In this document: piece by piece, positions 30,521 to 58,736 of the stretch
Position numbering within the stretch: the stretch's first letter is position 1
How the letters are laid out: every line of letters begins with the position of its first letter
Assembly (NCBI GenBank): GCA_022414725.1
Contig: CM039462.1
Location: 130,659,262 to 130,723,261 of the forward strand
Direction: 5' to 3'
DNA: 64,000 nt
Source: Microglena sp. YARC
Taxonomy: Eukaryota > Chlorophyta > Chlorophyceae > Chlamydomonadales > Chlamydomonadaceae
Made by a program: the position numbers and the translations under genes
The notes under the pieces: model-generated
Seen by the model: the letters and a program-made list of their open reading frames with translations, nothing else
What the model was told of the DNA's origin: nothing
Database searches by the model: none

Positions 30521-33500
30521 ATGCCCCTGTCGTCCCCTTGCCCTGGTTGCGTAGACTCCAACGATGGATTGAAGCCACACACCAAGGATGGACTGTCTCT
30601 GTTGGATCTGAGTAGCAGCAGTGGTAGCAGTGCCTATGGGAGCTTGGGAGATGGAAGTGGTGAGTGGGACATGGGTTGGGTAGGTTTGGCCCTGGGGCTG
30701 CACATAGTTATGCGTGTGTGGTTGTGGGTAGGCTACGTTGTAGTTGTTGTTTTTGTTCCTTACTTCACATATTCCAGTTGTAGAATTGTTACAATGAGCA
30801 GGAAGGAACAAAGGTGATAGAACTTGAAAACAAGAGGTGGTACTGGCATCGGCGAGCTGCCCAATAGAGCAGTGGAGTCGAGGGCCGCTTAGATACCTTA
30901 GAAAACAACTTCTTCGGCTACTGTCCTTACTTCACATATGGCCTGTAGCCCTCAAGCCACAGCTTTTATTTCAGCTACGAAATAATAGCTTATAGCTAAT
31001 AGCTTATGGGCAGCTACCCTGACTGGCTATTGAGCCAAACCAAATACAACATAGTGCTCCTTGAAGCAGACAAATCAGCTGTTAAGAACTGCTGACATAT
31101 TTGGCTGGCTGGCTCAGGGAGCTGCCTAGAAGCTGCTAATGAAAGTTGCAAAAAATACAATGCCTCAGGCTCAAGCCATTTAAGGTGAAAAATCAAGCTG
31201 CTCTGGTGGTTGTGGTCAGGTGGGGTGGATGGGCCTGGCGAATACTGAAGGGGGCTGTAGGACAATCAGAGACAGATTCCATGTACTATAAGGTGCTCAT
31301 GAGGCGTTGGGTCATAGAAAAGTGAGGAAAGGAGGATGGGAAAGGAAGGCATGAGGGCGGGAAAGAAGGAAGAAGGAAGGAAAATGAAGGCAGGAGGGGA
31401 GGAACAGAGTGAGGTACAGAGGGAGGGAAGGGAGGGAGGGAGGAAATTTAGGAAGGAAGGAAGCAAGGTGAAGGAAAGAGAGAGGGACAGAGTCAGCCAG
31501 TCTAAACCAAGCCCTACCTTAATTTCCAAAGGGCGCACTTGCACACTACCATAGTTTTTCTTTTCAGCAACAAGCAGCAGCTCCCTTACTCAGCCACTTG
31601 GCTAAGCCTCAAGATTTCAATATTTCTGGACAGTGGATTCTGTCAGCTTGCAGACATGCTAGGCTGCGCCAGTTTGGCTGAATAACCAGTTAGGGTAGCT
31701 GCCTAGAAGCTCCTGCTTGTAGCTGGAAAAGAAAAACACTGCACATTATGACTCGATTTAATCTGATTAAATTCCCCTTTTTATTTTATATATTCCTGTT
31801 AAAAAAATAATGAGAATGCCTGGTAGGGCGTGGTATTAAGGGAGCCCCGTCTTACGGCATTAGGGAACGGGCAACTACTTTACCTGGACAAAGCTACCAT
31901 GGCGGTTGACAGCTGTTTCAGGTTCAGCTCTTTCATTTGACTGTCTCACCTTGTTGCCAACCCCTTATTCTGCAGTTCATGTCACAACCATGGGCCCCAA
32001 GACCCCCACCTCCATTCAACGCAAGTTCGCTGACCTATTGAGCCCCTTTCTGGGTGGGAGCAAGACCAAGCAGTACGAATCCAAGAACGGCACTCACTCT
32101 GGCCAGCGATCCAGCCCTCAAGAGGGGAAGAAGAGCAAGGAAGAGTATTATGAGGGCAAGTCCAGATCAGTCTTGTCGGGCTTCTTCTGCGCCTCCTCCA
32201 GGTGTGAATGGGGTCGTGGATTATATTGGATTGGATTGTTACTTGGATTGTAACTTGGGTTTTCATCCAACCATGGGCTTGTTACCATGCAGGCAAGTCC
32301 AGATCAGTCTTGTCTGGCTTCTTCTGTGCCTCTTACAGGTGTGAACGGGGTCGTGGATTAGATTGGATTGGATTGTTACTTGGATTGTAACTTGGGTTTT
32401 CATCCAACTATGGGCTTGTTACCATGCGGGCAAGTCCAGATCAGTCTTGTCTGGCTTCTTCTGTGCCTCTTTCAGGAGAGAAGGGGGTCATGGATTGGAT
32501 TGGATTGTTACATCTTGTTTTAGCCAGCTTTGGACTCCAAGACTTGGTTGTGAGTATTTCATTGTCTGGCTTCTTTTACGCTTGCACCAGGTGAGGATAA
32601 GGCAGTGTTGTGCTAACTTTTGCGTGTGCCCAGGCATCTTTTTTGTTTGGTATAACATTTTTGCTCCGTATAACTTATCCTTATCCATATAAACACACCT
32701 AGACACACACCCATATACACACCCAGACACACACATGCACCTCATGATTGTTAGCACGGGCTTACTTAACGACTGCCAATGCATGCGTACACACATACAC
32801 AAACGCTGAAGCACACTTGCATACATACACAGGCAACTCTAAACCTCAAACCCTCAAACAAACTCTCACTCTCTAACTCTAACTCTCTAACTCTAACTCT
32901 CTAACAAACTCTAACTCTCAAACGAACCTCCATGTGCAGAAAAGGAAAGAAGGATCCAAACGCTGATGTAGTGAGCCCTATGGAGCTGCCCGGCAACTAC
33001 ATGAACAGCCAATCGCCATCCCTGATATTCCCCAGCTTGGATCGCCTCCTTCAGGCAGCAGAGAGCTGCAACTTACCACCCTCCCCACGCTTTCCCGAGC
33101 CCGGCACTCCCAACTACCCCACCATAATGCTCGGCCTGTCCAACTCACTGCCTCAGAGGATGCAGCGCCATAAGTGGTGCCTCAATGATTACACTATCAC
33201 GGAGAAGCTGTACAAAGGTAAGCACAGCGGATTCTTGCGTTTATGGCAGTGGTTATGGTGTCTGCACTGTGTGTTGTGGGGTGGGGGATTCTTGTGTGTT
33301 TAGGATGCAGCGCCATAAGTGGTGCTTGCATGATTACACTATCACGGAGAAGCTGTACAAAGGTAAGCACAGCGGATTCTTGCGTTTATGGCAGTGGTTA
33401 TGGTGTCTGCACTGTGTGTTGTGGGGTGAGGGATTCTTGTGTGTTTAGGAGGCAGCGCCATACGTGGTGCTTGCATGATTACACTATCACGGAGAAGCTG

Positions 33501-35361: not shown

Positions 35362-36304
35362 ACCCAAGCTGTCCTGAGTCTACGTTCTACAGTCTGGAGG
35401 GTAGCCAGATAGGCTAGCAGGGATTTCTCAGCCCAGTAGATGAGAGAGAGGCCCTAGCTTTTTGAATCTAGCCACCTTTTTACCTCGTCAGTCTTACTTA
35501 GGTAAAGCTGCTGGAGGAATTGTACCATTACTGGTCTTCGTGGCTTTCTGCTTGCTTACACCCTTCACACTTACACCCTTACACCCTGCGTGCGCCTTCC
35601 TGTCTTGGGTATGATGATGGTATGACTCTTGTAGAAGTGGCATACTGGCAACGGCATTCGAACTGAATCCTCGGTGTCGCTGGTTTGTGTCGGGAGACCC
35701 ACCTCCTGGGGTGAAAATCCTTTCACACAAAAAATTATAACAGACTTGAGATTCCTGTGGGTGTTGCTAAAAACTGCTCGTGTGTTTGCTGCGTGGCATG
35801 CATGGCAGCAGTGGCAACAGCTCTAGCCATACCTGAAAACCCTGTACGTGTGTGTTTATATATTACAGTCCATGGGTAGCCAAGTGGGACCTAGTGGACT
35901 GTAGATGTGCCTGCTTCTTCATTCCCCTCTTGTTGAGTTGTACCACAAAGCTGTCCACAATTGATTGTTAGTATGGATGCTTGTTGCACCTACATTCCTA
36001 GTTTACTTCCTTAGTTTTCACAACCAAGTTTGGATTGTTTAGGGTTAGGTCGCGGTGGTTTGCTAGCTCAAATAAAACTGCAAGACACATTGATTATTCT
36101 TTTGCTTGACTGTCCTGTGTATATATCATTTGTATACTCCCTCGAGGCTCATGACCATCCCATTGCAGTTTATTCTTACATTCTTTTCCCCTGTTGTGTG
36201 GCCTTCTAATCTCACTTGTGTGCGTTGTGTATCCGAGATCGCGAGTAGCAAGTTGCCGTGGCGAATTAAAGCAGGCTGCTTCCCTTTAATTTTACACACA
36301 CTTA

Positions 36305-37859: not shown

Positions 37860-40800
37860 CCAAGGGAAATGGTGAGGAGTTCCAAACTGACACACGGTTC
37901 CAGGCTTCCGACCAGCCGACAGCCATCTCTTCCAAACAAGCTGGCCCAATTAGTTTTCCTAATCACATAACCTCCCGACTGCACCCCAACTTTGTGGCCA
38001 GTGAGAGCTACCCAATCGCCAGCACTGATGCATTAGAGAAGGTAGCTGATGACTGCAGAAGCACAAGTCATGAGTGCGCGGTACACATAGTGGATGAGTT
38101 GGAACATGCGGTACGTGAGGGCAAGCTCAACGGGGCACTACCAGCAGTACTCAGCGGGGCACTACCAGCAGTACTCAATGGGACACTGCCAGCAGTAATC
38201 AACAAGGCACTACCAGCAGTACTCAACAAGGCACTACCAGCAGTACTCAACAAGGCACTACCAGCAGTACTCAACGGGACACAGCCAGCATTGCTAAACG
38301 GGACGCTACCAGCAGTACTCGAAGGGGCACTGCCAACATTGCTAAACGGGACGCTACCAGCAGTGCCTCTCTGCCTTGGCGGAGCCTTTGGCAGTGTGGC
38401 CATTGGTCCTGAGACTAGCTCTGTGTTAGGTTCGGAGTCAACAGGGTTTGAGTCTACAAGTCAGAATTATTTGGTCAATCTATGTCCTAGTGAAATGGAT
38501 CTGGTCCGTTCCCTGGAGGCTCTCCCCCCCCATGCAAAGACCCGTATCTCCCCGACCTCTCTTCCCCCATGCACTCATAGCAACGAGCTGATGTACACAC
38601 TAAGCAGTATGGAAATGCCCCCCCCGCTTCCTGTAGAGGACTCCTTCCCTCCCTCCCTCCTCGCCTCCACCGTCGAACCCATTACTACCATCGACTGGCA
38701 GGACCCGAGCAAGCGCGCCCATCCCAGGACCGACCGTGACCCACAAGCAGAGTCTTCCCATGGCAACAGTGTAGCCTTCACCCACAACAGCACGGGGGGG
38801 ACCACGGCCCCTCCCTTTTCCTTCCAGCTGTTGGCTGGAGAAACTTACCCAGGCTTTGCAGCTAGAAGTTCGCCTAGTGCTCCTCTCCTTAAAGTGGAGC
38901 CTGGTATCTTCGCTGCGTTCTCTGACGTAAGTATTCCTGCAAACGCTGACACAATAGGGCAGAAGACCAATGCAATGCTGGGGATGAGGGAGTGAGATAA
39001 AGTGTGACAGATTTACCCAACCCAACCCATCCCAGTCCAACCCAACCCAACCTGACCCAACCCGACCCAACCCAACCCAACCCAACCAAACCCAACCAAA
39101 ACCCAATCCAATCCAATCCAACCCAGCCCAGCCCAACCCAACCCAACCCAACCCAACCAACCCAACCCAACCCAACCCAACCCAACCCAAACCCAACCCA
39201 ACCCAACCCAAACCCAACCCAAACCCAACCCAACCCAAACCCAACCCAACCCAACCCAACCCAACCCAATCCAACCCAACCCAACCCAAACCCAACCCAA
39301 ACCCAACCAACAACCCAACCCAACCCAACCCAACCCAACCCAACCCAACCCAACCCAACCCAGCCCAACCCAACCCCAACCCACCCCGACCTGACCCAAC
39401 CCACCCCGACCTGACCCAACCCAACCCAACCCAACCCTAACCAATCCAACTCAACCCTACCCAACCCAACCCAACCCATCCAACCATCCCTGTCTGCAGC
39501 TAACATCAGATAAGGAACAAGCCAGCGCCCTCCTCCAGGGAAGACAGCGCCCCCCCTGCTCCTGCTAGCCCCAGAGCCATCAGGAAGTCCTTCTCACTAA
39601 ACCACCGCCCCGCCTCCCTGTGCGCGAGGGCTTCCATGCCGACAATATCAGAGGGTCGACAGCAGGCTGCCCTCCAGCCACCACAGCTTGCTATGGTCGG
39701 GAGCCAAGGTGATCAGGATCGCCCAAGCGTGGATTTGGTGACAAGCCAGGATAGCAATGCGAGTTCAGGGGGGAATTGCATCATGTCCTCGCCCCCGCCA
39801 GTCGATGAGCCTGCCAACGCTTCAGAGGCCATGCGGGTCGAGCTGATGATTGACACTGACGACCAGAGACTGAAAACGATTTCCCAGTCGCTGCAAGGCA
39901 TTAGCAGCTTGATGAAGGAGACAAACAGGCTAGAAATGAGCAGAGATGCATCGGGCGCGTGAGTATATATATGTTGTATTTATTATAGATAGATAGATAT
40001 AGATAGATATCTCTCTCTATATGTTATATTTATTATATATATTATATGTATATATTTGTTTTACATTGTTTTGATGATGAAGTGAAGCTGAGTGAATGGG
40101 GGAGGGGGCAGAGGTATAGAGAGTATCACTGTCTCAGCATCACAAGTTGCCAACATCCAGTCCCTTTTTTCCTTTCAGAATGTGTATCAACCAGTATGTG
40201 GTAGTGAAGTGCAGCTGAGTGAATGGGGAGAACGGGGGCAGGGGGTCTAGAGAGAGTATCACTGTCTCTGCATTGCAAAGTTTTCCAACATCCAGTCCCT
40301 TTTTTCCTTTCAGAATGTGTATCAATCCAGTACGTGGTGGCCTCACAATACCGAAGTGAATGCTGAGTGAATGGGGAGGGGGCAGGTGGTCTAGAGAGTA
40401 TCACTGTCTCTGCATCGCAAGTTGCCAACATCCAGTCCCTTCTTTCCTTGCAGAACGTGTATCAACCAGTATGTGGTGGTGAAGTCGATCGGTCGAGGTA
40501 GCTTTGGAAAGGTAAAGCTGTGCCTCAACACCATGGATGGCAAGATGTATGCTGTTAAGGTAGGTGGTAATTTGTCTTGGGTCTACACTGGCCTGCCTAG
40601 GACAATGTAATGTAATGTCAACACTGGCCACATGCCTGCCTATCACACTGTAATGCAATGTCAACACTGAAGCTTTGCTTCAACACCGTGGACGGCAAGA
40701 TGTATGCTGTTAAGGTAGGTGGTAATTTGTCTTCACTGGCCTGCCTAGGACAATGTAGTGTAATGTCAACACTGGCCACATGCCTGCCTATCACACTGTA

Positions 40801-43800: not shown

Positions 43801-45136
43801 AGTATTTCACCTGTTTAAATGTAGGGTGTATAGTATTTCACCTGTTTAAATATAGGGTGTATAGTATTTCACATGTTAAAATGTAGGGTATAAAGTGTTT
43901 CACATTTTAGAAGATAGAGTTTATGTGTATTTGACCAACCTGGTAGAGGGTAGGGTGTATAGTATTTCACACGATAGAAGGTACGGTGTATAGTTTTTCA
44001 CCTGTTAGAAGATAGGGCTTATGTGTATTTGACCAACCCAGTAGGAGGTAGGGTGTTGTGCAGAGATTTGTTTTCCCGATATATATATAGCTTTCGCTAC
44101 TTTTTACCCCGTTTTGGCCCAAATTGCTGCTTTTGCAAACCCAAATCTATGGCCCCAAATGGCCCTTAAAAGCTACAGAAAGCTATAAGAATGCTGCCCC
44201 TGGAGCAGGCCTAAACCCATAAAGCTATACAAAGAACACTTTCTGAACTGAAAAAAGCCCTGGTGTTGTATTTCTTGGTCGGTAGTCGAGAGGACAGTCC
44301 AGGCAGTCCGACAGCTGATATAAAAGCACCATTAGGGGTGCAAAAGGCAAGTACGTCGATGCCGATTGAGACCAACCCATTGGAAGTTTGGTTGTATTTG
44401 TATTTCACCCGTTACAAAACAGGGTTTATGTGTAGTTGACCAAGCTGTTAGAAAATAGGGTTTATGTGTAGTTGACCAAGCTGTTAGAAAATAGGGTTTA
44501 TGTGTAGTTGACCAAGCTGTTAGAAAACAGGGTTTATGTGTAGTTGACCAAGCTGTTAGAAAAGAGGGTTTATGCGTAGTTGACCAAGCTGTTAGAAAAC
44601 AGGGGTTATGTGTAGTTGACCAAGCTGTTAGAAAATAGGGTTTATGTGTAGTTGACTAAGCTGTTAGAAAACAGGGTTTATGTGTAGTTGACCAAGCTGT
44701 TAGAAAAGAGGGTTTATGTGTAGTTGACCAAGCTGTTAGAAAACAGGGTTTATGTGTAGTTGACCAACCTGTTCGAAAAGAGGGTTTATGTGTAGTTGAC
44801 CAAGCTGTTAGAAAACAGGGTTTATGTGTAGTTGACCAAGCTGTTAGAAAACAGGGTTTATGTGTAGTTGACCAAGCTGTTAGAAAACAGGGTTTATGTG
44901 TAGTTGACCAACCTTTTAGAAAATAGGGTTTATGTGTAGTTGACCAAGCTGTTACAAAATAGGGTTTATGTGTTGTTGACCAACCCGTTAGAAGCCCCCC
45001 CTCCCCCACCCCCCCTCCCCCTCCTCCTCCCCACTCAAAGACCCTCATCCAACCCCGTCCCCCTCCAGATATTATGCGTGAGGTAGCAGTGCTAAAGAAG
45101 CTGAACCTCCCCAACATAGTGCGGCTCCATGAATGT

Positions 45137-45182
<46 letters not shown>

Positions 45183-48100: not shown

Positions 48101-51100
48101 CCCCACCTCCAGTGTCATCACTGACACAACCATCTCCAGGAATATATCTCGCACCCCAGCTTTCCAAGCTCCGGAGTGCATCGACAAGTCAACCATCTCC
48201 AGCAATATATCTTGCTTCACACCCCACCCCACCCCAACCCAACCCAACCCAACCCAACCCAACCCAACCCAACCCAACCCAACCCAACCCAACCCAACTC
48301 TAGTGTCATCACCGACCCAACTATCTCCAACAAGATTTCTTGCACCCCACCCCACCTCACCCCACCCCCATCTCACCCCACTCCACCTCACCCCACCCCA
48401 CTTCACCCCACCTCCAGTGTCATCACCGACCCAACCATCTCCAGCAATACATCTTGCACCCCACCCCACCCCAACCCCCACCCCACTTCACCCCACCTCC
48501 AGTGTCATCACCAACCCAACCATCTCCAGCAAGATTTCTTGCACGCCAGCTTTTCAAGCTCCGGAGTGCATCGACAAGTCATCCAGCTTTGATGAGAGCG
48601 GTTGGCCCAAACACAGCTCAAACCAGGTTTTACTCGCCTCCGACATCTGGGCCCTAGGTGAGCAACTCTAAAGTAGTGCCAATTAAAAAATCTGCCCCCC
48701 CCCCCACACACACACCCCCCCACACACACACACACACCCACACACACCCACACACACCCACACCCACACACCGTGATATGACCCCCCACCCCAAATTGCC
48801 CCCTTGCTACACAAACACTCACGCACACAAAAATCACAGTGATATTCCCCCCCACACCCACCACCCACCCACCCACCCCTCCCCACCTCCACCCCACCCT
48901 CACCCCACCCTCACCTCACCCTCACCCCACCCTCACCCCACCCTCACCCCACCCTCACCCCACCTCACCCCACCTCACCTCACCCTCACCTCACCCCACC
49001 TCACCCCACCCTCACCCCACCCCACCCTCACCCCATCCTCACCCCACCCCACCCTCACCCCACTCTCACCCCATCCTCACCCCACCCCACCCTCACCCCA
49101 CCCCACCCCACCCCACCCCACCCCACCCCACCCTCACCCCACCCCACCCCAACCACCCACAACTAGGTGTCTGCCTATTCTGCCTTGTCTTTGGCCGCCT
49201 GCCCTTCGCTGGCTCATGTGTGCTGAACATGAACCACGAGATTTTGAAGGGCGTAGTTGACTATAGTCTGAACACGTCAGTGTCGCCGCTGCTCATTGAT
49301 CTGCTGAAAAGTATTTTTGTGGCTGACCCTCATGCTCGAATCAGCCTCCAGGTACGTGTAATGTTACCTTTGGGTTCAGTTCAGTTAGGTTAGGTTAGGC
49401 TAGGGTGAGATTGAGATTGAGTTGGGTGTCGCCGCTGCTCATCGATCTGCTGGGAGGATTGTTTTTCTTCATTTTTTTTCTTCTTTCATTCATGAGCGAA
49501 TCACCCTCTAGTTATGGGTAAGGGTAGCTTATGGTCCGGTTCTGTTCAGTTAGGCTAGGGTGAGATTGAGTTGGGTGTCGCCGCTGCTCATCGATCTGCT
49601 GGGAAGATTGTTTTTCTTCATTTTTTTCTTCTTTCATTCATGAGCGAATCACCCTCCAGTTATGGGTAAAGGCAGCTTATGGTCCGGTTCTGTTCAGTTA
49701 GGCTAGGTTAGGCTAGGGTGAGATTGAGTTTGGAATAGTCAGTGTCGCCGCTGCTCATCGATCTGCTGCAAAAACAAATTGTGGCTGACCCTCATGCTCA
49801 AATCACCCTCCAGGTTCTGTTCAGTTAGGCTAGGTTAGGCTAGGGTGAGATTGAGTTTGGAATAGTCAGTGTCGCCGCTGCTCATCGATCTGCTGCAAAA
49901 CATTTGTGTGGCCGACCCTCAAGAACGAATCACCCTCCAGGCATGTGTAATGTTAACTTTGGGTTCAGTTCAGTTAGGTAAGATTAGGTTAGGTTAGGCT
50001 AGGGTGAGATTGAGATTGGGTTGTGTTTGGTGTCGCCGCTGCTCATCGATCTCCTGCGAAGCGTTTTTTGGCTGACCCTCATGCTCGAACCACCCTCCAG
50101 GTATGGGTTAGGTTAACTGAAGGTTCAGTTCAGTAAGGCTAGGGTTAGGTTGGGTTGGGTTGGGTGTCACCGCTGATCATCGATCTGCTGCAAAACATTT
50201 GTGTGGCCGACCCTCATGCTCGGACCACCCTCCAGGTATGGGTTAGGTTAACTGAAGGTTCAGTTCAGTAAGGCTAGGGTTAGGTTGGGTTGGGTTGGGT
50301 GTCACCGCTGATCATCGATCTGCTGCAAAACATTTTTGTGGCCGACCCTTATGCTCGGACCACCCTCCAGGTATGGGTTAGGTTAACTGAAGGTGCAGTT
50401 CAGTAAGGCTAGGGTTAGGTTGGGTTGGGTTGGGTGTCACCGCTGATCATCGATCTGCTGCAAAACATTTTTGTGGCCGACCCTTATGCTCGGACCACCC
50501 TCCAGGTATGGGTTAGGTTAACTGAAGGTGCAGTTCAGTAAGGCTAGGGTTAGGTTGGGTTGGGTTGGGTGTCACCGCTGATCATCGATCTGCTGCAAAA
50601 CATTTTTGTGGCCGACCCTTATGCTCGGACCACCCTCCAGGTATGGGTTAGGTTAACTGAAGGTGCAGTTCAGTAAGGCTAGGGTTAGGTTGGGTTGGGT
50701 TGGGTGTCACCGCTGATCATCGATCTGCTGCAAAACATTTTTGTGGCCGACCCTTATGCTCGGACCTCCCTCCAGGTATGGGTTAGTGTAACTGAAGGTG
50801 CAGTTCAGTAAGGCTAGGGTTAGGTTGGGTTGGGTTGGGTGTCACCGCTGATCATCGATCTGCTGCAAAACATTTTTGTGGCCGACCCTTATGCTCGGAC
50901 CACCCTCCAGGTATGGGTTAGGTTAACTGAAAGTGCAGTTCAGTAAGGCTAGGGTTAGGTTGGGTTGGGTTGGGTGTCACCGCTGATCATCGATCTGCTG
51001 CAAAACATTTTTGTGGCCAACCCTCATGCTTGAACCAACCTCCAGGTAAGGTTTGTAGGTGATCTGAGGGTTCAGTTCAGTTAGGCTAGGTTAGGCTAGG

Positions 51101-54100
51101 GTGAGATTGCGTTGGGTTGTGTGTCACTGCTGCTTATCGATCTGCTGCGACGCATTTTCGTGGCTGACCCTCATGCTCAAATCACCCTCCAGGTTTTGTT
51201 CAGCTAGGTTAGGTTAGGCTAGGGTGAGATTTCGTTGGGTTGTGTGTCACTGCTGCTTATCGATCTGCTGCGACGCATTTTCGTGGCTGACCCTCATGCT
51301 CAAATCACCCTCCAGGTTTTGTTCAGCTAGGTTAGGTTTGGCTAGGGTGAGATTTCGTTGGGTTGTGTGTCACTGCTGCTTATCGATCTGCTGCGACGCA
51401 TTTTCGTGGCTGACCCTCATGCTCAAATCACCCTCCAGGTTTTGTTCAGTTAGGCTAGGTTAGGCTAGGGTGAGATTGCGTTGGGTTGTGTGTCACTGCT
51501 GCTTATCGATCTGCTGCGACGCATTTTCGTGGCTGACCCTCATGGGCACAGCACCCTTCAAGTAAGGGTTGTAGGTGATCTGAGAGTTTGGTTCAGTTAG
51601 GCTAAGCTAGGGTGCGGTTGGGACGGGTTGGATAATGCTAGGTTGGAGTTAGGTTACGTTTCGGGATAAGGTTAGATTAGGTCATGTGAAGGGTGTGGTG
51701 GACTACCGTTTGGACACGTGGGTGTCACCGCTGCTCAATACCCAACCTGCCAACCAGCCAACATCCAACCCTGCAACCACTTCTCTCAATGCCCAGGGCA
51801 TCATGTCCCACCCTGGGTTTGCACCTCTGGCGAGGCCTCCTTCATCAGCGTCTTCTCCTTACCCGACCAAGTCCCCGCGCACATCAGCATCTCCCCCCCC
51901 CCCCCCCCCCCCCCCCTCCCACCCACCCACCCAATCTCCATACCAACTCCCATCCAACCCTGCTTCCACTCCTCTCAATGCCCAGGGTATCATGTCGCAC
52001 CCCTAAATATCCCCCCCCCCCCCCCCCCCCCCCTCCCCCCCCCCCCACCCCCACACAACCCTGCTTCCACTCATCTATATACAGGGCATCATGTCGCACC
52101 CTGAAGTCTCAAGCTCTCCCCCACACACACACACCCCCCCCCCACACACACACACACTCACACTCACACAACCCTGCTTTCACTCCTCTAAATGCCCAGG
52201 GCATCATGTCCCACCCCTGGGTTTGCTCCTCTGGTGAGGCCCCCCTCATCAGCGTGTTCTCCTTGCCCGACCAAGTCCCTGCGCACATCAGCGTCTCCGC
52301 CGAGGAGGAGCAGAACGCCATCGCGCAGCCGTCACTCGCGTCTCTCATCCGGGCCAAGCTGAAAGAAAAGCAATACGAGGATGGGCGCATCATTTTCACG
52401 GAAGGGGACGAAGCCCACTGTATCTATATGATCATGTCTGGTGTGGTGGAGTTGATTACTCACACACGCACAAGCGACGCCGGCGAAGCAGGCAGGGCTC
52501 TGGAGGAACTGTGCTCCATCAAAGACAGGGGATCCATTGGATCGCTCACAGGTGGGTCACATGCATAACTGCATAACCTCACATATTTGCATATATCTAG
52601 GGACGGCCATATGATATGATGCAACAATGGCGGAGCAGGTAGGGCTCTGGAAGGACTGTGCCCGAGAAAGGACAGGGGATCCATTGGATCGCTCACAGGT
52701 GGGTCACATGCATCATTGCGTAACAGCATATATTTTCTTATATCCAGGAACCTGCATATCATATGATGTTGACCAAAGCCGAGTATGATATGATGTGACG
52801 ATGGCGTGGCAGGCAGGGCTCTGGAGGGACTGTGCTCCACTAAGGGCATGGGATCTATTGGATCTCTCACAGTCGGGTCACATGTATCATTGCATAACAG
52901 TATATATTTGCGTATACCTAGGGAACGGCAATATGATATCATATGATCTCATACAATTTCATATGATTCCGGCAGTCTGAATATTTTAAGGTACCATTTA
53001 GATACAATATCATATGATGCAATTTGTATGATATCATACTCGCCTTGGGTCAACATCGTACGATTTCCCGGTCCCTTTGTAAATCCCACTGAAGGAAATG
53101 AAGTTTACCGTATCCCAAGCTTTTCTTTCCAGCGGGGAGTAGCAGCTTCTAGGCAGCTCCCTGAGCCAGTCACTGGTTGTTGTCATGAGCAGCAGCTTCT
53201 AGGCAGCTCCCTGAGCCAGTCACTGGTTGTTGTCATGAGCAGCAGCTTCTACGCAGCTCCCTGAGCCAGACACTGGTTGTTGTCATGAGCAGCAGCTTCT
53301 AGGCAGCTCCCTGAGCCAGACACTGGTTGTTATCATGAGCAGCAGCCTCTAGGCAGCTCCCTGAGCCAGTCACTGGTTGTTGTCATGAGCAGCAGCTTCT
53401 TGGCAGCTCCCTGAGCCAGTCACTGGTTGTTGTCATGAGCAGCAGCTTCTAGGCAGCTCCCTGAGCCAGACACTGGTTGTTGTCATGAGCAGCAGCTTCT
53501 AGGCAGCTCCCTGAGTCAGACACTGGTTGTTGTCATGAGCAGCAGCTTCTAGGCAGCTCCCTGAGCCAGTCACTGGTTGTTGTCATGAGCAGTAGCTTCT
53601 AGGCAGCTTCCTGAGCCAGTCACCAGTTGAAGTCCCAAGATTTCAACACTATTACTGGAAAGCTGAGCCTGTCAGCTTCCAGATGCAATACTTTGCTTTG
53701 GGTTTGGCTGGGTAGCAAGTCAGGGGATCTGCCTAGAAGCTGCTGCTCGTAGCCTAAAAGAACAATTCCTATGCAGCGTCGCAAGCGACGTGAAAAATTG
53801 GCAGAGAGTGTTGGCTATCGGAACGACTGGTGGCAGGAGGATGGAGCGGACCGAAGCCAGTTAGTCAAGAAACAGTTGGCTGACGTGTTTGGCTTTGTCT
53901 CGGTCGTCGGTCGGACGGTCGGACGGGAAATGGGGTGAATCTGGGGGCTCCGCCCAAAATCTATTCTGTTTCTGCGTGCTTAGAACTCTTCCAACAAAAT
54001 CGTGACCCCTTTATGGATTTCTGCTGCTGTATGTGAGACTGTGTATGCATAAGCAGCTGGGTAAGCTGCACTTGACCTTTGTAACATCGATTATACCCTT

Positions 54101-57100
54101 TTGCCTTGTTGCAATTGTCACCTCTCTTGATAGGCTGTCAATGCAGACCGTGGGAGCGATCTCCTCCATCATTCGAACCTGACTGGCTCCTACATGATAC
54201 TGCGCAACTCAATATGTGAGGCAACTGTTTGTGAGACACACAGTGCATGTGAGGCAGCTGTATGCCCTGACGATTTCTGCTGCTGGCATTAATTACCCCT
54301 TCAACCAACTCTTTATCTTTTTATCGATTTTTGCAGTTGGCCTAGATGACTATTTCAACTATAACTCACAACCGATTTCTGCATGTGGCATATTCTGCAG
54401 TTGACATATTCTGCAGTCAACATATATGATATATGATTCTTTCAACTAATCCCTGGACTAAACATCCCCCCTTCGGGGTTAGCGAGTCCCGCCTATTGGT
54501 GGTACAAGCTTAGGGCGGTACTCGCAAAGCCCGACAGCGAAAAAGAGGACATCCACCAAGTCAGTAACCGTCAAACGGACATCCTGGCGTATCACACTCC
54601 GACCTCTGAATTGATTTATGCAGTGGACCTAGACGACTCTTTCAAATAATCCGTGACCTCTGAATTGATTTATGCAGTGGACCTAGACATCTCTTTTAAC
54701 TAACATCTGACATTTTAATCGATTTCATGCAGTGGACCTAGACGACTCATTTACCTAACCCCTGACGTCTTCATCGATTTCTGCAGCCGACATTAACGGC
54801 TCCTTCAAATAATCCCTGACCTCTAAATTGATTTATGTAGTGGACCTAGACGACTCTCAACAAACTCCTGACCTCTGAATTGATTTCTGCAGTGGACTTT
54901 GACGATTCTTCTAACTAACTCCTGACCTCTAAATCGATTTCTGCAGTGGACCTAGACGACTCTTTCAAATAATCCCTGACCTCTGAATTGATTTATGTAG
55001 TGGACCTAGACGACTCTCAACTAACTCCTGACCTCTGAATTGATTTCTGCAGTGGACTTTGACGATTCTTTTAACTAACTCCTGACCTCTAAATCGATTT
55101 CTGCAGTGGACCTAGACGACTCTTTCAAATAATCCCTGACCTCTAAATCGATTTCTGCAGTGGACCTAGACGACTCTTTCGACTCATTCCTGACCTCTGA
55201 ATTGATTTATGTAGTGGACCTAGATGACTCTCAACTAACTCCTGACCTCTGAATCGATTTCTGCAGTGGACTTAGACGATTCTTTTAACTAACTCCTGAC
55301 CTCTAAATTGATTTCTGCAGTTGACCTAGACATCTCTTTTAACCAACTCCTGACATCTGGATTGATTTTCAGACATTTGAGGCTCCTTCAACTTACTCTG
55401 ACATTTGAGGCTCCTTCAACTTACTTATTAATGCAGTGGACCTAGACGACTCTGAACTAACTCCTGACGTCTGAATTGATTTCTGCAGTGGACCCACACG
55501 ACGTTCAACTAACTCCTGACGTCTGAATTTATTTATTCAGCAGACATTTGAGGCTCCTCCAACTTACTCTTGACATTTTTTATTTATGCAGTGGACCTAG
55601 ACGACTCTCAACTAACTCCTGACGTCTGAATTTATTTATTCAGCAGACATTTGAGGCTCCTCCAACTTACTCTTGACATTTTTTATTTATGCAGTGGACC
55701 TAGACGACTCTCGACTAACTCCTGACGTCTGAATTGATTTCTGCAGTGGACTTACACGACTCTCAACTAACTCCTGACGTCTGAATTTATTTATTCAGCA
55801 GATATTTGAGGCTCCTTCAACTTACTCTTGAACTTTTTTATTTATGCAGTGGACCTAGACGACTCTTTCAACTTGGAGAATGAAACTGCTGAAGAGACAG
55901 GCGTGGTACCGTCGGAATCGGATGGGAAACTGCACATCAGTCGGGAAAGGGTAAGACACGCTAAATCCATTTAAATATAATCTAATATACAAATAGCAAT
56001 ATAGTAATTTAGAGTTTTATATTATTATGAATTTATCCGATCATAATATATTCAGATATTTTTGTTAATTTTCAATTACATTGTAAACTGACTAACTATT
56101 TGTCTTTCAACTTGGATAATGAAGCTGCTGAACAGACAGGGGTGACACTGCTGGTATTAGATGGGAAACTGCATATCAGCCACAAAAGGGTAAGACATGC
56201 TGTGTATGCTATGTATTTGGTGCTTGGCCCCATTGGAAGCAAACAGGCTGGCCCCCTAACCCCCAGGAATTGTAATAAGGTGTATTATTTATGTATGCTT
56301 TATTTATGGGATGTATGTATGCGTGCTGAAATACTGAAGGGACAGACGTAGCACCGTTAGTATTGGATGGGCAACTACATATCAGCCGGGATAGGGTTAG
56401 ACATGCTAAATCCATTTAAATGTATTATAATAAACAAATACAAATATAGATATTTATATTATTATGTATTTATTATGAAATTCCTTTTTTTTCAAATGGA
56501 TATTTGATTTTCAACTTGAAGGATAAAGCTGCTGAAGAAACATGCATGACACAGTTGGTATTGTATGGGCAACTGCACATCAATCGGGGAAAGGTTTAGG
56601 CATGCTGAATCCATTTCAATATGTCATAATATACATAGGCTGATGAACTGAGGAAGTCCTATTTGGCCTACCCCTGGACTGTAACATACATACATACATA
56701 CATACATACATACATACATACACTGTTGATCCCATCCCGCCCAACCACGCCACAGACTGATGGACCAAGGAAGTCCTATTTGGCCTACCCCTGGACTGGA
56801 ACATACATACATACATACATACATACGTACATACACTGTCAATCCCATCCCGTTCAACCACACCACAGGCTGATGGACTGAGGAAGTCCTCTTTGGCCTA
56901 CCCCTGGACTGTAACATACATACACTGCTAATCCCATCCCGTCCAGCCACACCACAGGCTGATAGACTGAGGAATTGTTGGGAAGTTTTTCATTATACAC
57001 TGACAATACCATTCCAATACCATCTCATGACAATCTCAATCTCCATCCCAATCCCCATCCCAATCCCCATCCCAATCCCCATCCCATGAAAATCCCAATC

Positions 57101-58736
57101 CTAATCCCTATCCCTATCCCTATCCCTATCCCTATCCCAATTCCATCCCATGCCAATCCCGTTCAAATACACCAGAGGCTGACGAACTGAGAAAGCAGAG
57201 GGCAAAGCTTATGTTTGGTGAATGCGGGTACACGGAGTACGTGGTGGAGGTGAATAAGGGTACACGGAGTACGTGGTGGAGGTGAATACGGGTACACGGA
57301 GTACGTGGTGGAGGTGAATACGGGTACACGGAGTACTTGGTGGAGGTGAATACGGGTACACGGAGTACTTGGTGGAGGTGAATACGGGTACACGGAGTAC
57401 TTGGTGGAGGTGAAAGGGCCAGGCAATCCCAACCCCATCCCATGAAAATCCAGTGGCAATCCCAATCCCAATCCCATCCCATGAAAATCCCAATCCCGTC
57501 CCATGGCGATCCTGTCCATCTACACCACAGGCTGACGAACTGAGAAAGCGAAGGAAAAAGCTAATGTTTGGTGACTACACGGAGTACGTGGTGGAGGTGA
57601 AAGGGCCTGGCCAAATGTGTGGAGAGGTATCACTGGACAGAAGCTTTGGTACACAAGAGGACAGCCGACCAGTAGAGGTGTCTCTTCACAAGCACTCAGC
57701 TCGCTGCAAAGGGCCTGTCACAGTGGTGACGCTTACAGAGGCGAACTTCCTTACAGCATTGTTGCAGGTACGCGTGCAAATTATATACATAAAAAAGTAT
57801 ACAACAAATTATATATAAAAATGTCTAAACAAGAAAAGCAAACTTTCTGACAGCGTTGTTGCAGGTACGCGTGAAAATTGTATATATACAAAAGTATACA
57901 ACAAATTATATATACAAATGTCTAAACAAGAAAGGCAAACTTCCTGGCAGCGTTGATGCAGCTGTGCGTGAAAATTTCATATATAAAAATGTATTAAAAA
58001 TATTATTAAAACGTAAATATAAAAATAAAAGCACTAAACAATAAACACAAACTTCCTGGGGGGTTGGAAACGTGTTCTTAGTCCACTAGAAGCTTGTATA
58101 ACGTTGTCACTCCACAAGCACTCAGCTTGCTGAAAAGGGCTGCTCATAGTGTTGACGCTTACAGAGGCAAACTTCCTGACAGCGTTTATGCAGGTGCGTT
58201 TGAAAATGTGTTGTTAGTCCACTAGAAGCGTTTGCAAAAACTGTTACTTCACTAGAGAGAATAGAGTATCTGTAATGTGGCATTTTGTAATTTTTGTAAT
58301 TTTTAATGTCCTTGGTAGCAACCCTGTCTGTGCGCAGGTGCATGGTGAGAACCACAACAGCTCCGAAGCCAAGCCACATCTAAGCCATAAATCAGCATCC
58401 ATGCTTTTGATGCAAGAGCTTCAGTCAACAAGCAGTCAGTCCACTTCTTTCACCCCTACCCTCTACCCCTACCCCAACCCTCACCCTCACCCCCACCCTT
58501 TCTGTGCGCAGGTGCATGGTGGGAACCGCAACAGCTCTGAAGCCAAGCCTTGCCTAAGCCACGAATCAGCATCCATGCTTTTGATGCAAGAGCTGAAGTC
58601 AACAAGAAGGCAATCCACCACTCTCAGCCGTCCCACAAGTCCAGGGCTCATTCACCACACCCTGAGCAGTCCTCCCAAAACAATGTCTCCTCGCCACCTT
58701 CAAGCTGCCCCTACCTCCTCTACACTTTACTTATGA
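37860..58736 (+). CDS. CaMKK/LKB1-like kinase fused to cyclic-nucleotide-binding domain (kinase 2)
   Basis: Exons: 37860-38926, 39510-39958, 40454-40559, 42312-42613, 45375-45537, 46609-46764, 48503-48657, 49167-49351, 52200-52551, 54147-54215, 55850-55950, 57531-57767 and 58512-58736 (TGA). That is about 1,190 codons; a first exon with the ATG is missing. All introns are GT-AG with matching phases. Catalytic motifs: GRGSFGKV and YAVK (Lys codon 40557), helix-C Glu 45386 in IMREIAVLKKLDHPNIV, HGDLKPENLL (46688; Gly replaces the Arg of HRD), DFG (46748), PAFQAPE (48558), SDIWALG, and the domain end SHPWV. This fits upstream AMPK/SnRK1-activating kinases. A cNMP-binding fold follows: GRIIFTEGDEAHCIYMIMSG (exon 9), then CGEVSL and a conserved Arg (exon 12, codon 57666) of the phosphate-binding cassette. 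Exon 4 needs a 1-base correction near 42350 to stay open. Confidence 0.8.
38128..38365 (+). other. octapeptide repeat region in kinase 2 N terminus
   Basis: About ten 24-bp units encode ALPAVLNG/ALPAVLNK-type octapeptides in the first recognised exon. Central units are almost identical, so the tract is young or homogenised. The hydrophobic-small periodicity suggests a short solenoid or flexible linker; the function is unknown. Codon phase is kept in all units, which supports coding. Confidence 0.75.
38927..39509 (+). repeat. intron of kinase 2 made of (CCCAA)n
   Basis: The donor is GAC|GTAAGT at 38927. From about 39015 to 39482 the intron is nearly pure CCCAA pentamers, with occasional CCCAAA, CCAAT or CCCGA variants. 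The acceptor best fitting phase 0 is CATCAG at 39504-39509; an upstream CTGCAG would meet a stop. The template strand is (GGGTT)n and could form G-quadruplexes. The pentamer is not a known algal telomere repeat, so this is an intronic satellite. Confidence 0.85.
39959..40453 (+). repeat. kinase 2 intron with two decoy copies of exon-3 acceptor
   Basis: Donor GC|GTGAGT. The segment 'caacatccagtccctttttt.cctttcag' plus 'aatgtgtatcaaccagtatg' occurs at acceptors ending 40178 and 40313, before the true acceptor ending 40453. Each copy carries the first 20-30 bases of exon 3 and then 'ctgagtgaatggggag'-type filler. The unit is about 137 bp. TA-rich microsatellite lies at 39963-40060. Confidence 0.85.
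40560..41185 (+). repeat. decoy copies of exon-3 donor in kinase 2 intron, with (TAATG)n
   Basis: The exon-3 end 'gctttgcctcaacaccatgg' to 'atgctgttaag' followed by GTAGGTGG recurs near 40673-40720 and 40815-40868. Progressively shorter relics occur near 40980, 41072 and 41175. TAATG/TGTAA pentamers fill the gaps, with a pure block at about 40911-40980. The true donor is at 40560. Confidence 0.85.
41262..41442 (+). repeat. dispersed repeat family 2, copy 3
   Basis: Full-length-looking copy: 'ggttaccccttgtccg', 'gacgaagcctgacgcgtcag', 'ctcgctttcgttgccacctg', 'gcgacgctgcatagaacttgt'. It directly abuts a MITE-like element at 41443, an arrangement repeated in mirror image at 53760. Confidence 0.65.
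41443..41634 (+). mobile_element. MITE-like inverted-repeat element, copy 3 (best-formed)
   Basis: Ends are inverted copies: left CTTTTCAGCTACAAGAAGC with 'agcttctaggtagctccctg', right 'cagggga.gctgcctagaagc' with GTAGCTGAAAAGAAAAGC. The 192-bp body has no reading frame. The interior 'cactgggctaagccccaagc' and 'tgtatcagcttctagatgca' is shared, inverted, with 63127-63320. The family matches the MITE type of non-autonomous DNA transposon; the superfamily is unknown. Confidence 0.7.
41720..42311 (+). repeat. C-rich tract and two decoy copies of kinase 2 exon-4 start
   Basis: Poly-C/CCCAC tracts at about 41719-41820, 42040-42140 and 42240-42300 separate three versions of the exon-4 start. Decoys at about 41927-42020 and 42137-42235 carry 'ttttcatcgtcaagca.ct' and 'gaatcacgagaggaaacttga'. 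The true exon follows TTGCTCAG at 42311. The decoys contain stops soon after the start. Confidence 0.8.
42602..44060 (+). repeat. 31-bp tandem array seeded at the kinase 2 exon-4 donor
   Basis: About 45 units of consensus TTTAAATGTAGGGTGTATAG followed by TATTTCACCTG. The first units read TTAGAAGGTGAAG and TTAGAAGGTAGG, i.e. the last exon bases (gttagaag) plus the donor GTGAAG. So the array looks like serial duplication across the splice junction that then drifted (TTAGAAG to TTTAAAG to TTTAAAT). It fills over half of the first part of the intron. Confidence 0.9.
44281..44396 (+). repeat. diverged copy of kinase 2 exon-4 end in the intron
   Basis: 'ggtcggtagtcgagaggaca' then 'caggcagtccgacagctgat' and 'gatgccgattgagaccaacc' followed by 'cattggaag' resemble exon 4 bases 42520-42613 ('gtcagttcagacagtacaat' to 'gagaccaacccgttagaag'). 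The following bases TTTGGT replace the donor GTGAAG, so the splice site is lost. It lies between the 31-bp and 36-bp arrays. Confidence 0.65.
44395..44995 (+). repeat. 36-bp tandem array in kinase 2 intron
   Basis: About 16 units of GTTAGAAAACAGGGTTTATG followed by TGTAGTTGACCAAGCT. Transitional units near 43910-44050 mix this monomer with the 31-bp one, so the two arrays are related. The 166-codon minus-strand frame with THKP repeats is a by-product of the 36-bp (divisible by three) period. Confidence 0.9.
44996..45374 (+). repeat. decoy copy of kinase 2 exon-5 start plus CA/TA microsatellite
   Basis: CCCTCCAG|ATATTATGCGTGAGGTAGCA at 45069 begins a diverged copy of exon 5 (about 65 bases, to 'gcggctccatgaatg'), then (CA)n(TA)n at 45133-45182. 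The true exon 5 starts at 45375 after CTCTTCAG. In the decoy, 'aacctccccaac' replaces 'gaccaccccaac' (Leu-Pro for Asp-His). Confidence 0.85.
45538..45957 (+). repeat. decoy copy of kinase 2 exon-5 end with C/A-rich tracts
   Basis: 45656-45735 repeats the last ~85 bases of exon 5 ('tcgtcgtacatcatgatggt' onwards) and a donor AAG|GTGGGATG. The two copies differ by a 5-base difference in 'ggatttgcaag' versus 'ggcaag'. Only the first donor (45538) keeps the frame into exon 6. CCCACC and CTACCTAC tracts flank both copies. Confidence 0.85.
45958..46182 (+). repeat. dispersed repeat family 2, copy 4
   Basis: 'cgaagcccccccc' start, 'gaccgtccgaccgacgaccg', 'aggcgaagcctgacacgtca', then 'cattgtcgccacctgtcgtt' and 'cgccgcttgcgacgctgtgc'. 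Inserted within the tandem array that precedes exon 6 of kinase 2. Confidence 0.65.
46183..46608 (+). repeat. tandem intron-end array before kinase 2 exon 6
   Basis: Units of about 75-110 bp made of a T-rich tract (CTTTTTCTTTTTCTTTTCTC), then 'aaccgcatcctcaaacacag' and 'tcacctctttccatggaatg', occur at about 46207, 46285, 46362, 46475 and the true one at 46566. An isolated earlier relic sits at 45900. In contrast to other arrays the copied unit is mostly intronic, ending at or just before the acceptor; only the last copy reads GAATGCAG|GCTCCC. Confidence 0.8.
46931..47260 (+). other. open frame of unknown origin within kinase 2 intron
   Basis: 109-codon frame from an ATG-like start, with a protein-like composition ('LLDEFAYIVGPAMADYCKML' and 'MMRLRASLAKSLPWQPDAV'). 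It does not match the decoy exon pattern nor a family I recognise. Its 3' half forms the left arm of the perfect palindrome, so it may be a piece of a mobile element or of another gene copied here. Confidence 0.35.
47107..47401. repeat. perfect 146-bp palindrome with 3-nt spacer
   Basis: Bases 47107-47252 and 47256-47401 are exact reverse complements over 146 positions, separated by AGG at 47253-47255. I checked the arms base by base: left GCAGGACCAGCTAGC..., right ...GCTAGCTGGTCCTGC. Such a structure would extrude as a cruciform or fold as a long RNA hairpin. It could be a real fold-back duplication or an inverted chimera in the assembly. Confidence 0.95.
48026..48502 (+). repeat. three decoy copies of kinase 2 exon-7 start among CCCAA/CCCCA tracts
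   Basis: Acceptor plus exon start (CCTCCAG|TGTCATCAC, then 'acccaaccatctccagcaa') occurs at about 48114, 48303 and 48418 before the true one at 48503. The first decoy carries about 70 further exon bases ('ccagctttccaagctccgga'). Copies are separated by (CCCAA)n at 48235-48297 and CACCCC tracts. Confidence 0.9.
48658..49166 (+). repeat. kinase 2 intron of CA and (CACCCCACCCT)n
   Basis: Donor GTGAGC at 48658 and acceptor AACTAG at 49166. Between them are CACACACACC at 48705-48775 and a CACCCCACCCTCACCCC array at about 48895-49150. No decoy exon copies are seen here. The long Pro/His/Thr frames on the plus strand and Gly/Val frames on the minus strand are artefacts. Confidence 0.85.
49352..51660 (+). 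repeat. array of about 16 decoy copies of kinase 2 exon-8 end
   Basis: Each unit of 120-150 bp holds the last ~75 bases of exon 8 ('gtcgccgctgctcatcgatc', 'tgctgcaaaacatttttgtg', 'accctccag'), then GTATGGGTTAGG or GTTTTGTTCAG and 'cagttaggctaggttaggct'. Copies at about 50160-51000 (134-bp period) are almost identical; outer copies are diverged. Most keep AG|GT at the former splice site. The phase-0 join to exon 9 requires the first donor at 49352. Confidence 0.95.
51661..52199 (+). repeat. relic of exon 8 and three decoy copies of kinase 2 exon-9 start
   Basis: 51684-51737 copies the middle of exon 8 ('gtgaagggtgtggtggacta'). Copies of the exon-9 start ('cag|ggcatcatgtcccaccc') lie at 51798, 51988 and 52086; the first extends through 'tacccgaccaagtccccgcg' and 'cacatcagcatctcc'. 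Poly-C tracts separate them. The true acceptor is AATGCCCAG at 52199. Confidence 0.9.
52552..52990 (+). repeat. two decoy copies of kinase 2 exon-9 end
   Basis: 'gcagggctctgga.gaactg' through 'ggatccattggatcgctcac' then AG|GTGGGTCAC recurs at about 52632-52710 and 52810-52885. The second has AG|TCGGGTCAC, so its donor is lost. CATATGATATGATG-rich spacers come along with each copy. The unit is about 165 bp. Confidence 0.9.
53005..53080 (+). repeat. second copy of GTATGATATCATAC dispersed repeat
   Basis: Matches 13427-13495: 'ttgtatgatatcatactcgc' then 'gggtcaacatcgtacgattt' and 'cccggtccct'. Located in a kinase 2 intron. Confidence 0.6.
53119..53765 (+). mobile_element. MITE-like element copy 4, expanded by a 50-bp internal tandem repeat
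   Basis: Left end AGCTTTTCTTTCCAGC, right end 'ctagaagctgctgctcgtag' with CTAAAAGAAC. Near the left end ten units of 50 bp (AGCAGCTTCTAGGCAGCTCC, CTGAGCCAGTCACTGGTTGT, TGTCATGAGC) run exactly head to tail at 53141-53640. Other copies have one such unit, so the array grew inside the element. Confidence 0.75.
53766..53960 (-). repeat. dispersed repeat family 2, copy 5, inverted
   Basis: Reverse complement of the family: 'gcagcgtcgcaagcgacgtg', 'aacgactggtggcaggagga', 'ctgacgtgtttggctttgtc', 'cggtcgtcggtcggacggtc'. It adjoins the MITE end exactly as the copy at 41262 does, but in the opposite orientation. Confidence 0.65.
54280..55849 (+). repeat. array of more than 20 decoy acceptors before kinase 2 exon 11
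   Basis: Units of roughly 60-70 bp carry 'tcctgacctctgaattgatt' plus TTCTGCAG or TTATGCAG, then TGGACCTAGACGACTCTTTC, i.e. the branch/pyrimidine region, the acceptor and the first ~20 bases of exon 11. The last one, at 55849, is the true acceptor (TTTATGCAG). Copies at 55360-55830 alternate with 'cagacatttgaggctccttc' relatives, so at least two unit subtypes exist. Confidence 0.9.
54462..54600. other. hairpin-bearing insertion inside the acceptor array
   Basis: The array is interrupted by a foreign stretch with two predicted hairpins: CCCCCCTTCGGGG at 54466-54478, and GCGAGTCCCGCC (54482-54493) pairing with GGCGGTACTCGC (54514-54525) with one mismatch. It has no resemblance to neighbouring units. 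Origin unknown. Confidence 0.5.
55951..56615 (+). repeat. three decoy copies of kinase 2 exon-11 end
   Basis: 'tcaacttggataatgaagct' with 'gatgggaaactgcatatcag' and AAAGG|GTAAGACATG recurs at about 56105-56196. A second copy is at 56318-56402 (AGG|GTTAGA, 5' part degraded) and a third at 56510-56602 (AAAGG|TTTAGG, donor lost). Splice sites decay with distance from the exon. Confidence 0.9.
56616..57530 (+). repeat. decoy copies of kinase 2 exon-12 start, CATA and AATCCC tracts
   Basis: The exon-12 start ('ccacag|gctgacgaactgaga') has diverged copies near 56637, 56755, 56869, 56957 and a long one at 57177-57250. The long copy expands into six tandem units of GGTACACGGAGTACGTGGTG plus GAGGTGAATAC (57229-57420). 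(CATA)n tracts at 56688-56722 and 56800-56835 and AATCCC/TATCCC tracts at 57040-57135 lie between. The true acceptor is CACCACAG at 57530. Confidence 0.85.
57768..58337 (+). repeat. decoy copies of kinase 2 exon-12 end
   Basis: 'ttctgacagcgttgttgcag|gtacgcgtg' at about 57842-57872, 'ttcctggcagcgttgatgca' with lost donor at 57938-57965, and a longer copy at 58097-58192 beginning 'ccacaagcactcagcttgct'. The last ends in ATGCAG|GTGCGT. The true donor is 57768. Confidence 0.85.
58338..58511 (+). repeat. duplicate of kinase 2 last-exon start, in frame
   Basis: CTGTGCGCAG|GTGCATGG occurs at 58337/58338 and again at 58511/58512, each followed by about 100 similar bases (encoding VHGGNRNSSEAKPCLSHES-like sequence). 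Both acceptors are phase 0 and the stretch between them is open. The last exon could therefore start at either site, giving proteins differing by 58 residues. Confidence 0.75.

Follow-up and report, generated by a model that had tools for sequence, protein, structure and literature searches.

Duplicated splice junctions in two kinase genes

How is a gene spliced correctly when copies of its splice junctions fill the introns beside them? This question is raised by two neighboring genes, kinase 1 and kinase 2, in the genome of the green alga Microglena sp. YARC (568,105,699 bases, 2,390 contigs). The analyzed stretch of 64,000 nucleotides (C1:130659262-130723261) is called the window below, and the two genes lie on its + strand and together span all of the finding. 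In a preliminary description of this DNA it had been claimed that about 19 exon boundaries of the two genes have tandem copies in the adjacent intron, which agreed well with the 18 of 30 junctions that were counted in this study (two of the six junctions of kinase 1 and 16 of the 24 of kinase 2). It was confirmed that tandem copies straddle exon edges, and that they do so at many loci of the genome. The best explanation seems to be frequent local tandem duplication in combination with a selection filter, with the resulting decoy splice sites being tolerated under exon definition, and its probability is estimated to be roughly 0.7.

For the count, 80-nt junction queries were compared with the adjacent intron, and a copy was regarded as spanning when it included at least 8 nt on either side of the junction. 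At the low threshold, 92 spanning copies were found in the two kinase genes. The number of junctions with a copy in their own intron was 18 of 30 at scores of 18, 24, and 30 alike, while the control, in which the same 30 junctions were compared with other introns, yielded 12, 3, and 1 positives in 420 comparisons at these scores. The junction copies in the own intron exceed chance.

The gene models were built by joining the outermost GT-AG sites, and the exons of kinase 2 were designated E1 to E13.

30521..35361, +: kinase 1, 4 exons, 571 amino acids (30521-30659, 31976-32201, 32940-33217, 34289-35361)
36985?..58736, +: kinase 2, CaMKK-like kinase with a cyclic-nucleotide-binding (cNMP-binding) domain, 13 exons, start of the first exon uncertain
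36985?-37036, 37860-38926, 39510-39958, 40454-40559, 42312-42613, +: kinase 2 E1-E5, frame break within E5
45375-45537, 46609-46764, 48503-48657, 49167-49351, +: kinase 2 E6-E9
52200-52551, 55850-55950, 57531-57767, 58512-58736, +: kinase 2 E10-E13

In kinase 1 the frame is open and the phases match at the outermost GT-AG sites. The protein matches the Pfam family Pkinase (E = 7e-60), and its closest named relatives are chlorophyte kinases, part of which are named Aurora or Aurora-like. Close relatives that carry a name belong to chlorophytes, mostly Chlamydomonadales. The EukProt protein P0121 is identical to kinase 1 from inside exon 1 onward and has a different N-terminus. In kinase 2 the phases match throughout at the outermost sites, and the single frame break, either a sequencing error or a real allele, is inside E5 (42312-42613), a region through which the homologs P0002 and P0003 continue, as judged by eye. 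Comparison with Pfam revealed a kinase and a cyclic-nucleotide-binding domain. The best match in the PDB, determined with a query without E5, was human CaMKK2, and the alignment has gaps of at most three residues at the junctions E6/E7 to E9/E10. Open frames (apart from the E5 break), matching phases, and homology thus suggest that joining the outermost sites would leave the peptide unaltered.

The EukProt proteins that were compared match the present genome at 92-100%. One of them, P0001, starts in E6 and is identical to kinase 2 over E6-E13 with the exception of E8, because the true exon 8 is swapped for a decoy-derived exon at 48111-48203. P0001 is therefore devoid of the true exon 8 stretch, in which the kinase motif D-x-W lies.

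Location and orientation of the arrays

The arrays at the individual junctions are as follows.

32155..32607, +: kinase 1 exon 2 end, 3 copies (GT in 2); 137-bp unit
33157..34115, +: kinase 1 exon 3 end, 6 copies (GT in 5); 145-bp unit; 4 share the 9-nt core of the true donor
40078..40485, +: E4 start, 2 decoy acceptors with a unit of roughly 135 bp
40515..41142, +: E4 end, 4 decoy donors; 148-bp unit, shorter thereafter
41885..42400, +: E5 start, 2 decoy acceptors
42597..44993, +: E5 end, arrays of 31 bp x 44.6 and 36 bp x 16.2; a longer exon copy near 44348-44417
45054..45432, +: E6 start, 1 decoy acceptor (45054-45107)
45447..45783, +: E6 end, 1 decoy donor
45897..46608, +: E7 start, array reaching the last base of intron 6, without exon 7 sequence and not counted as spanning
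46724..48007, +: E7 end, 2 copies, 1 with GT
48072..48588, +: E8 start, 3-4 decoy acceptors; source of the P0001 exon 48111-48203
49245..51737, +: E9 end, 14-16 copies depending on the threshold (GT in 11 of 14); unit about 123-160 bp
51740..52296, +: E10 start, 3 decoy acceptors
52476..52967, +: E10 end, 2 copies (GT in 1); 147-bp unit
54271..55950, +: E11 start, 15-19 decoy acceptors with a unit of roughly 54 bp
56103..56635, +: E11 end, 3 copies, 2 with GT
56611..57610, +: E12 start, 5 decoy acceptors at score 18; a 32-bp sub-array (57217-57414) within one exon copy
57679..58198, +: E12 end, 3 copies (GT in 2); 97-bp unit
58321..58618, +: E13 start, 1 decoy acceptor

At the E5 end, the 31-bp and the 36-bp minisatellites and the donor of exon 5 group in a single similarity cluster, and 17 spanning copies were found at score 18 and ten at score 24 with a longer query. 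The pair at the E6 start was found in the cluster analysis and was not flagged as spanning there; it was classified as spanning by the junction query. A single match at the E3 start (0.71 identity) was dropped as low-complexity sequence. The single copy at the start of exon 13 had been stated correctly. The highest copy numbers had been given as about 16 for the "exon 8 end", which probably corresponds to the E9 end and is in accordance with the number found there, and as more than 20 for the exon 11 start, which is slightly too high.

A search of both flanks of 17 exons yielded 56 copies of exon parts. Of these, 48 reach the terminus that faces the respective flank, while the remaining eight come from the exon interior (E6, E9, and the E12 sub-array). 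The wrong terminus is included in none of the 56 copies, and no copy was found on the opposite strand. The earlier claim that decoy donors are always downstream of the true donor and decoy acceptors always upstream of the true acceptor is upheld by this side rule; special targeting is, however, not needed for it, because the survival of harmless duplications could suffice, and the same applies to the claim that the protein is intact only at the outermost sites. According to Tandem Repeats Finder (TRF) rows and similarity clusters, the arrays are head-to-tail, on the same strand, and local, as is typical of minisatellites. The longest intron part contained in the copies of a junction was 17-60 nt, out of 60 nt of intron that were examined. 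In three introns of armadillo-repeat genes of the window, none of the six junctions has a copy.

Properties of the copies and the decoy sites

Compared with the true junction, the copies have identities between about 0.68 and 0.98. It had been stated that the copies decay with distance, and identity was indeed negatively correlated with distance in nine of the ten arrays with at least three copies; the decay is uneven, however, as only three correlations were below -0.7 and one was +0.75. The mismatch frequencies versus the exon were 0.105, 0.106, and 0.190 at the codon positions 1, 2, and 3 (array-weighted). This mild excess at the third position is expected if it is mainly the outer exon that is constrained while the copies drift, and because it is just mild, the idea that the copies themselves are constrained coding exons was rejected. 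Sites at which every copy agrees, yet differs from the exon, number 4, 10, and 18 at the three positions.

An intact GT or AG is present in 82 decoys. The use of 18 of them would keep the frame, and two of these are also free of stop codons (at the E8 start and the E13 start), with the stop test being uninformative at the E5 end. Therefore, the view that the protein is intact solely when the outermost sites are joined had to be relaxed slightly, and the outermost sites are predicted to be nearly the sole ones that yield the protein.

The core of the splice site is identical to that of the true site in 16 of the 92 copies. A crude consensus score, which disregards whether the GT is intact, was at least as high as that of the true site for 34 of the 92 copies, and at least one such copy is present at 15 of the 18 junctions. 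It was therefore rejected that site strength alone decides the choice, within the limits of the crude score, although site strength may contribute to it. Identical cores and equal or better scores mean that the local sequence cannot always separate true sites from decoys. In all seven kinase 2 introns with both kinds of copies, the donor copies are located ahead of the acceptor copies, so that no pair of a decoy acceptor and a decoy donor flanks a pseudo-exon.

A paralog of kinase 2 and further loci of the genome

A diverged paralog of kinase 2 is encoded at C2:15570710-15588023 (EukProt gene20276, P0008), and P0008 has 45-58% identity to four stretches of kinase 2. In the paralog DNA (L035 and L036), copies were found at nine of 13 splice junctions, compared to one of 152 in the cross control. 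The numbers of copies at the affected junctions are 2, 6, 5, 33, 3, 4, 9, 5, and 1. The 33 tandem copies belong to the exon 8 acceptor, extend over 3.8 kb (3480-7279 of the joined L035-L036), and form the biggest junction array that was found. By eye, arrays of kinase 2 and the paralog are at seemingly shared positions, i.e., E6 start and end, E8 start, E9 end, E10 start, and E11 start. The translated copies of the paralog resemble, again by eye, the paralog's own exons, and they look as if they were formed, or homogenized, after the two genes had split. E8/E9 as well as E11/E12 are separate in kinase 2 and continuous in the paralog matches, so that an intron loss or gain is possible at both places.

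A further array is present at the end of the paralog gene. Its stop codon, together with the last coding residues and the beginning of the 3′-flank, has four tandem copies downstream, in the 3′-flank. The stop codons of kinase 1, kinase 2, and ARM1 and the start codon of kinase 1 have no copies. A process specific for splicing would not predict the stop-codon array, and it suggests that the boundary matters rather than the splice site.

To sample other loci, 20 stretches of 10 kb were taken from the Pkinase matches of the genome, whereby partial and thus probably multi-exon matches were chosen. These loci contain 39 coding pieces that were defined by homology, and 11 of these have partial copies on the same strand at a distance of up to 2.5 kb. 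Within this distance, copies on the opposite strand were found for none of the 39 exons; this served as the control, because an earlier cross control (17 of 195) was inflated by paralogous kinases among the loci. The side rule was obeyed by 33 of 35 copies (29 of 30 downstream copies include the exon end, four of five upstream copies the exon start), and none of the 35 copies in these loci included the wrong terminus. In 13 of the 20 loci, the junctions of 16 introns could be defined by homology, and copies were found at eight of 32 junctions, compared to one of 480 in the mismatched-intron control. Several of these introns are doubtful (L014, L015, L017, the acceptor of L022, and L025), and wrong sites depress the count. 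In L022, copies were recognized by eye at all four edges of two exons, while the automatic test examined two edges and credited one, indicating that eight of 32 may be low.

When the gene models of the genome's own annotation were used for L001, L005, L013, and L026, copies were found at three of 18 junctions, with L013 and L026 overlapping the set of 32 junctions. All junction rates from outside of the window are from kinase genes. Very roughly, 1/6 to 1/4 of the junctions are affected in the other sampled kinases, and kinase 2 is an extreme gene. The pattern noted in the preliminary description recurs elsewhere, but the density in kinase 2 is untypical for the genome, as the armadillo-repeat introns also illustrate. 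A search with a kinesin profile yielded 128 pieces with 12 overlapping pairs within 2.5 kb. Eight pairs follow the side rule, two are undecidable, and two that were marked as violations by the script compare two copies of one exon with each other.

Some clusters end at, or a few bases from, an exon edge without including exon sequence (45897-46608 in the window, 4416-4794 and 6805-7401 in L026); they are possibly eroded junction arrays or reflect a breakpoint preference. Internal protein repeats were considered as a genome-wide proxy and were not used, as low-complexity repeats are too frequent (54 of 226 other matches were flagged). Five of 14 proteins from the same annotation were flagged, and P0008 and P0198 were judged to contain clear tandemly repeated pieces.

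The further loci also bear on the question of whether the arrays might be an assembly artifact, with noisy long reads being collapsed or mis-joined. The frame break in exon 5 of kinase 2 suggests residual indel errors, and the window starts with 139 N. Nevertheless, an artifact is very improbable, because the copies are distinguished from one another by substitutions and indels, the side rule is found at many loci and in two protein families, no opposite-strand copies were found in the searches described above, and an assembler has no reason to honor exon edges. Taken together, the identities of the copies, the side rule, and the other loci agree with the earlier proposal of a repeated tandem duplication that enlarges existing introns.

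Duplication, a proposed selection filter, and the choice of splice sites

The arrays show that local tandem duplications, with units of mostly about 50-200 bp, are frequent and recurrent in this genome, and the underlying molecular step could be slippage, unequal exchange, or template switching. Duplications within an exon would be purged by selection. In contrast, duplications of a boundary would survive, because the extra copy comes to lie in the noncoding part while the original edge remains intact. Such a selection filter is proposed on the basis of the side rule and the stop-codon array. The copies have diverged, presumably under little coding constraint, and when they are copied again, introns could gain kilobases. 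We infer that the copies are neutral. In an affected intron, decoy donors follow right after the true donor and decoy acceptors are right before the true acceptor, and the mRNA would need the outermost pair. Exon definition could select this pair, since the closest partner on the other side of an exon is in each case a true site, while simple intron definition or first-AG scanning would be expected to fail on such introns.

Several observations weigh against this explanation. With a pure filter, arrays in the intron interior should be about as common per base as spanning arrays, yet 18 of the 21 independent intronic or junctional similarity clusters in the two kinase genes span a junction (two merged clusters, joined via short exons, were taken as two each, and the E6 start was added from the junction query; otherwise it would be 17 of 21). 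The stop-codon array was found at one of four examined stops, and the paralog stop lies in sequence that resembles a dispersed repeat of the window. P0001, which like P0121 is an annotation protein generated with an unknown method, deviates from the proposed exon chain at E8. Sites at which just some copies differ from the exon number 50, 30, and 66 at the codon positions 1, 2, and 3, and such a third-position lean among the copies is unexpected if the copies are wholly unconstrained; exon changes between successive duplications could produce it. The GT is retained in 39 of 49 aligned donor copies and the AG in all 30 acceptor copies; this might point to constraint, with the qualification that the alignments had been selected to span the site. 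Lastly, 58 of the 92 copies, chiefly at the E9 end and the E11 start, have a crude score below that of the true site.

The cluster count would be explained if duplication were directed to junctions by its coupling to transcription or splicing, for example by an R-loop, a break, or template switching at the composition step between exon and intron, so that the pattern would be mutational. With random placement in the present introns after collapsing of the arrays, the expected share of spanning clusters is 0.16-0.48, and the binomial p values for the observed count fall from 4e-4 with 180-bp units to 3e-12 with 60-bp units. Moreover, kinase 2 and the paralog have arrays at apparently matching intron positions that seem, by eye, to be independent. 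However, this excess depends on the collapsed intron lengths, which are hand estimates. For ancestral introns of 150-200 bp and units of at least 100 bp the expected share is 0.63-1.00, and p exceeds 0.2 for ancestral introns of 150 bp with units of at least 100 bp, 200 bp with units of at least 140 bp, and 280 bp with units of 180 bp. The stop-codon array has no splice site, and arrays away from known exons are common: 97 clusters were found in the 20 loci and 11 contact a known exon end, with many exon ends there being unknown. Directed duplication is doubtful. A similarly low probability is given to the view that duplication in this lineage is drawn to exon edges, whereby decoys would be laid down continually, introns and the genome would grow, and this would be survivable only through the reading of exons.

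It was also rejected that junctions are covered by duplications to a higher degree than intron interiors. Random intron positions were duplicated at rates of 0.50-0.60 in a one-way search and 0.64-0.71 in both directions, about the same as junctions, because arrays fill these introns. This counts against a special status of junctions, and it is only the number of independent arrays that favors them. Clusters of exon-only duplications are scarce, with one in the two kinase genes and one among the 97 clusters of the other 20 loci. The former consists of ten in-frame 24-bp repeats in exon 2 of kinase 2 (38126-38364).

The retained GT and AG dinucleotides and the copies with a core identical to that of the true site would also fit functional copies, which might act as a splicing buffer, adjust gene expression via nonsense-mediated decay, or enable stepwise (recursive) splicing. 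Such a function is improbable, as the copy numbers are unequal at corresponding introns of kinase 2 and the paralog, the exon parts have just the mild third-position excess, and most junctions examined outside of the kinase 2 genes have no copies.

Other sequence features of the window

The introns also contain a dispersed repeat with the core AGCAGCTTCTAGGCAGCTCCCTGAGCCAG, which is present on both strands and resembles the sequence around the paralog stop codon. It has been expanded to a 50-bp x 9.7 array in intron 10 of kinase 2.

31109-31137, 41460-41488, 41590-41610, 53141-53619, 53724-53744, 63148-63168, 63270-63298, both strands: AGCAGCTTCTAGGCAGCTCCCTGAGCCAG dispersed repeat

Such repeats, e.g., the 50-bp array at 53137-53623, the core of which occurs elsewhere in the window, would fit the view that dispersed introner-like or transposable elements carry splice sites by chance. 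However, the junction copies are hardly ever found outside of their own intron, as all three sets of controls revealed (12, 3, or 1 of 420; 1 of 480; 1 of 152), and they do not have the distribution of introners or transposable elements, i.e., the same sequence across many unrelated introns. This origin is hardly credible.

A 295-bp near-perfect palindrome (98.98% identity to its own reverse complement) lies in intron 7 of kinase 2 (47107-47401) and is a mobile element or a fold-back artifact. Two armadillo-repeat genes are arranged in tandem at 15421-18716 and 19770-23056 and are 95.6% identical over 3,298 aligned positions. The third, more diverged armadillo-repeat gene is located at about 7.3-12.3 kb of the window.

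Comparison with known systems and implications

Rogers' model of intron gain and the cases of ATP2A1, fission yeast, and potato are described in PMC4974935, and novel introns that arose through tandem duplication in Drosophila in PMC2891723, while PMC1636649 and PMC7617258 turned out to have no bearing on the finding. In ATP2A1/ATP2A2 (Hellsten et al. 2011, via PMC4974935) a local tandem duplication also added splice sites, and use of the outer ones leaves the peptide as it was. In that case, however, an exonic segment with AGGT gave rise to a new intron, while the unit described here spans an existing junction, enlarges the intron that is already there, and is present in up to 33 copies per junction. 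The duplicated sequence of the potato RdRp gene crosses an intron-exon boundary, as it does here, but it represents a single duplication and a new intron, in contrast to many junctions and copies in existing introns (PMC4974935). In fission yeast, one intron swallowed several tandem copies (four duplicates) of a 24-bp exonic duplication with AGGT (Zhu and Niu 2013b, via PMC4974935). This unit is exonic and two genes are concerned, whereas the pattern described here extends across many genes of one genome. The likeness to the AGGT model that had been pointed out earlier is therefore partial, because the units are not exonic segments with AGGT; they consist of an exon end and an intron start, or of an intron end and an exon start, and thus hold real splice sites and intron sequence.

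Intronic minisatellites are likewise arranged head-to-tail with units of tens to hundreds of base pairs, but the units described here include a piece of a coding exon and the arrays are anchored on the exon edge. Zhuo et al. reportedly described in 2007 human introns from tandem arrays, in which both boundaries lie in tandem direct repeats and the two ends match each other, while here each intron end is repeated with itself. Among the titles and abstract openings of the literature that was searched, junction-spanning arrays at such a scale are not described, which does not establish their absence from print. To our knowledge, and in the literature that was examined, tandem duplications that cross junctions had been known only as isolated cases.

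Here they recur at many loci within a single genome and reach 33 copies per junction, which offers a direct view of intron growth. For annotators the arrays are a warning, since the public model P0001 contains an exon built from a decoy. Spliced aligners reportedly generate spurious junctions between repeats (PMC10632439). The near-equal sites in a row make the choice of splice sites by the spliceosome under exon definition testable in a unicellular alga.

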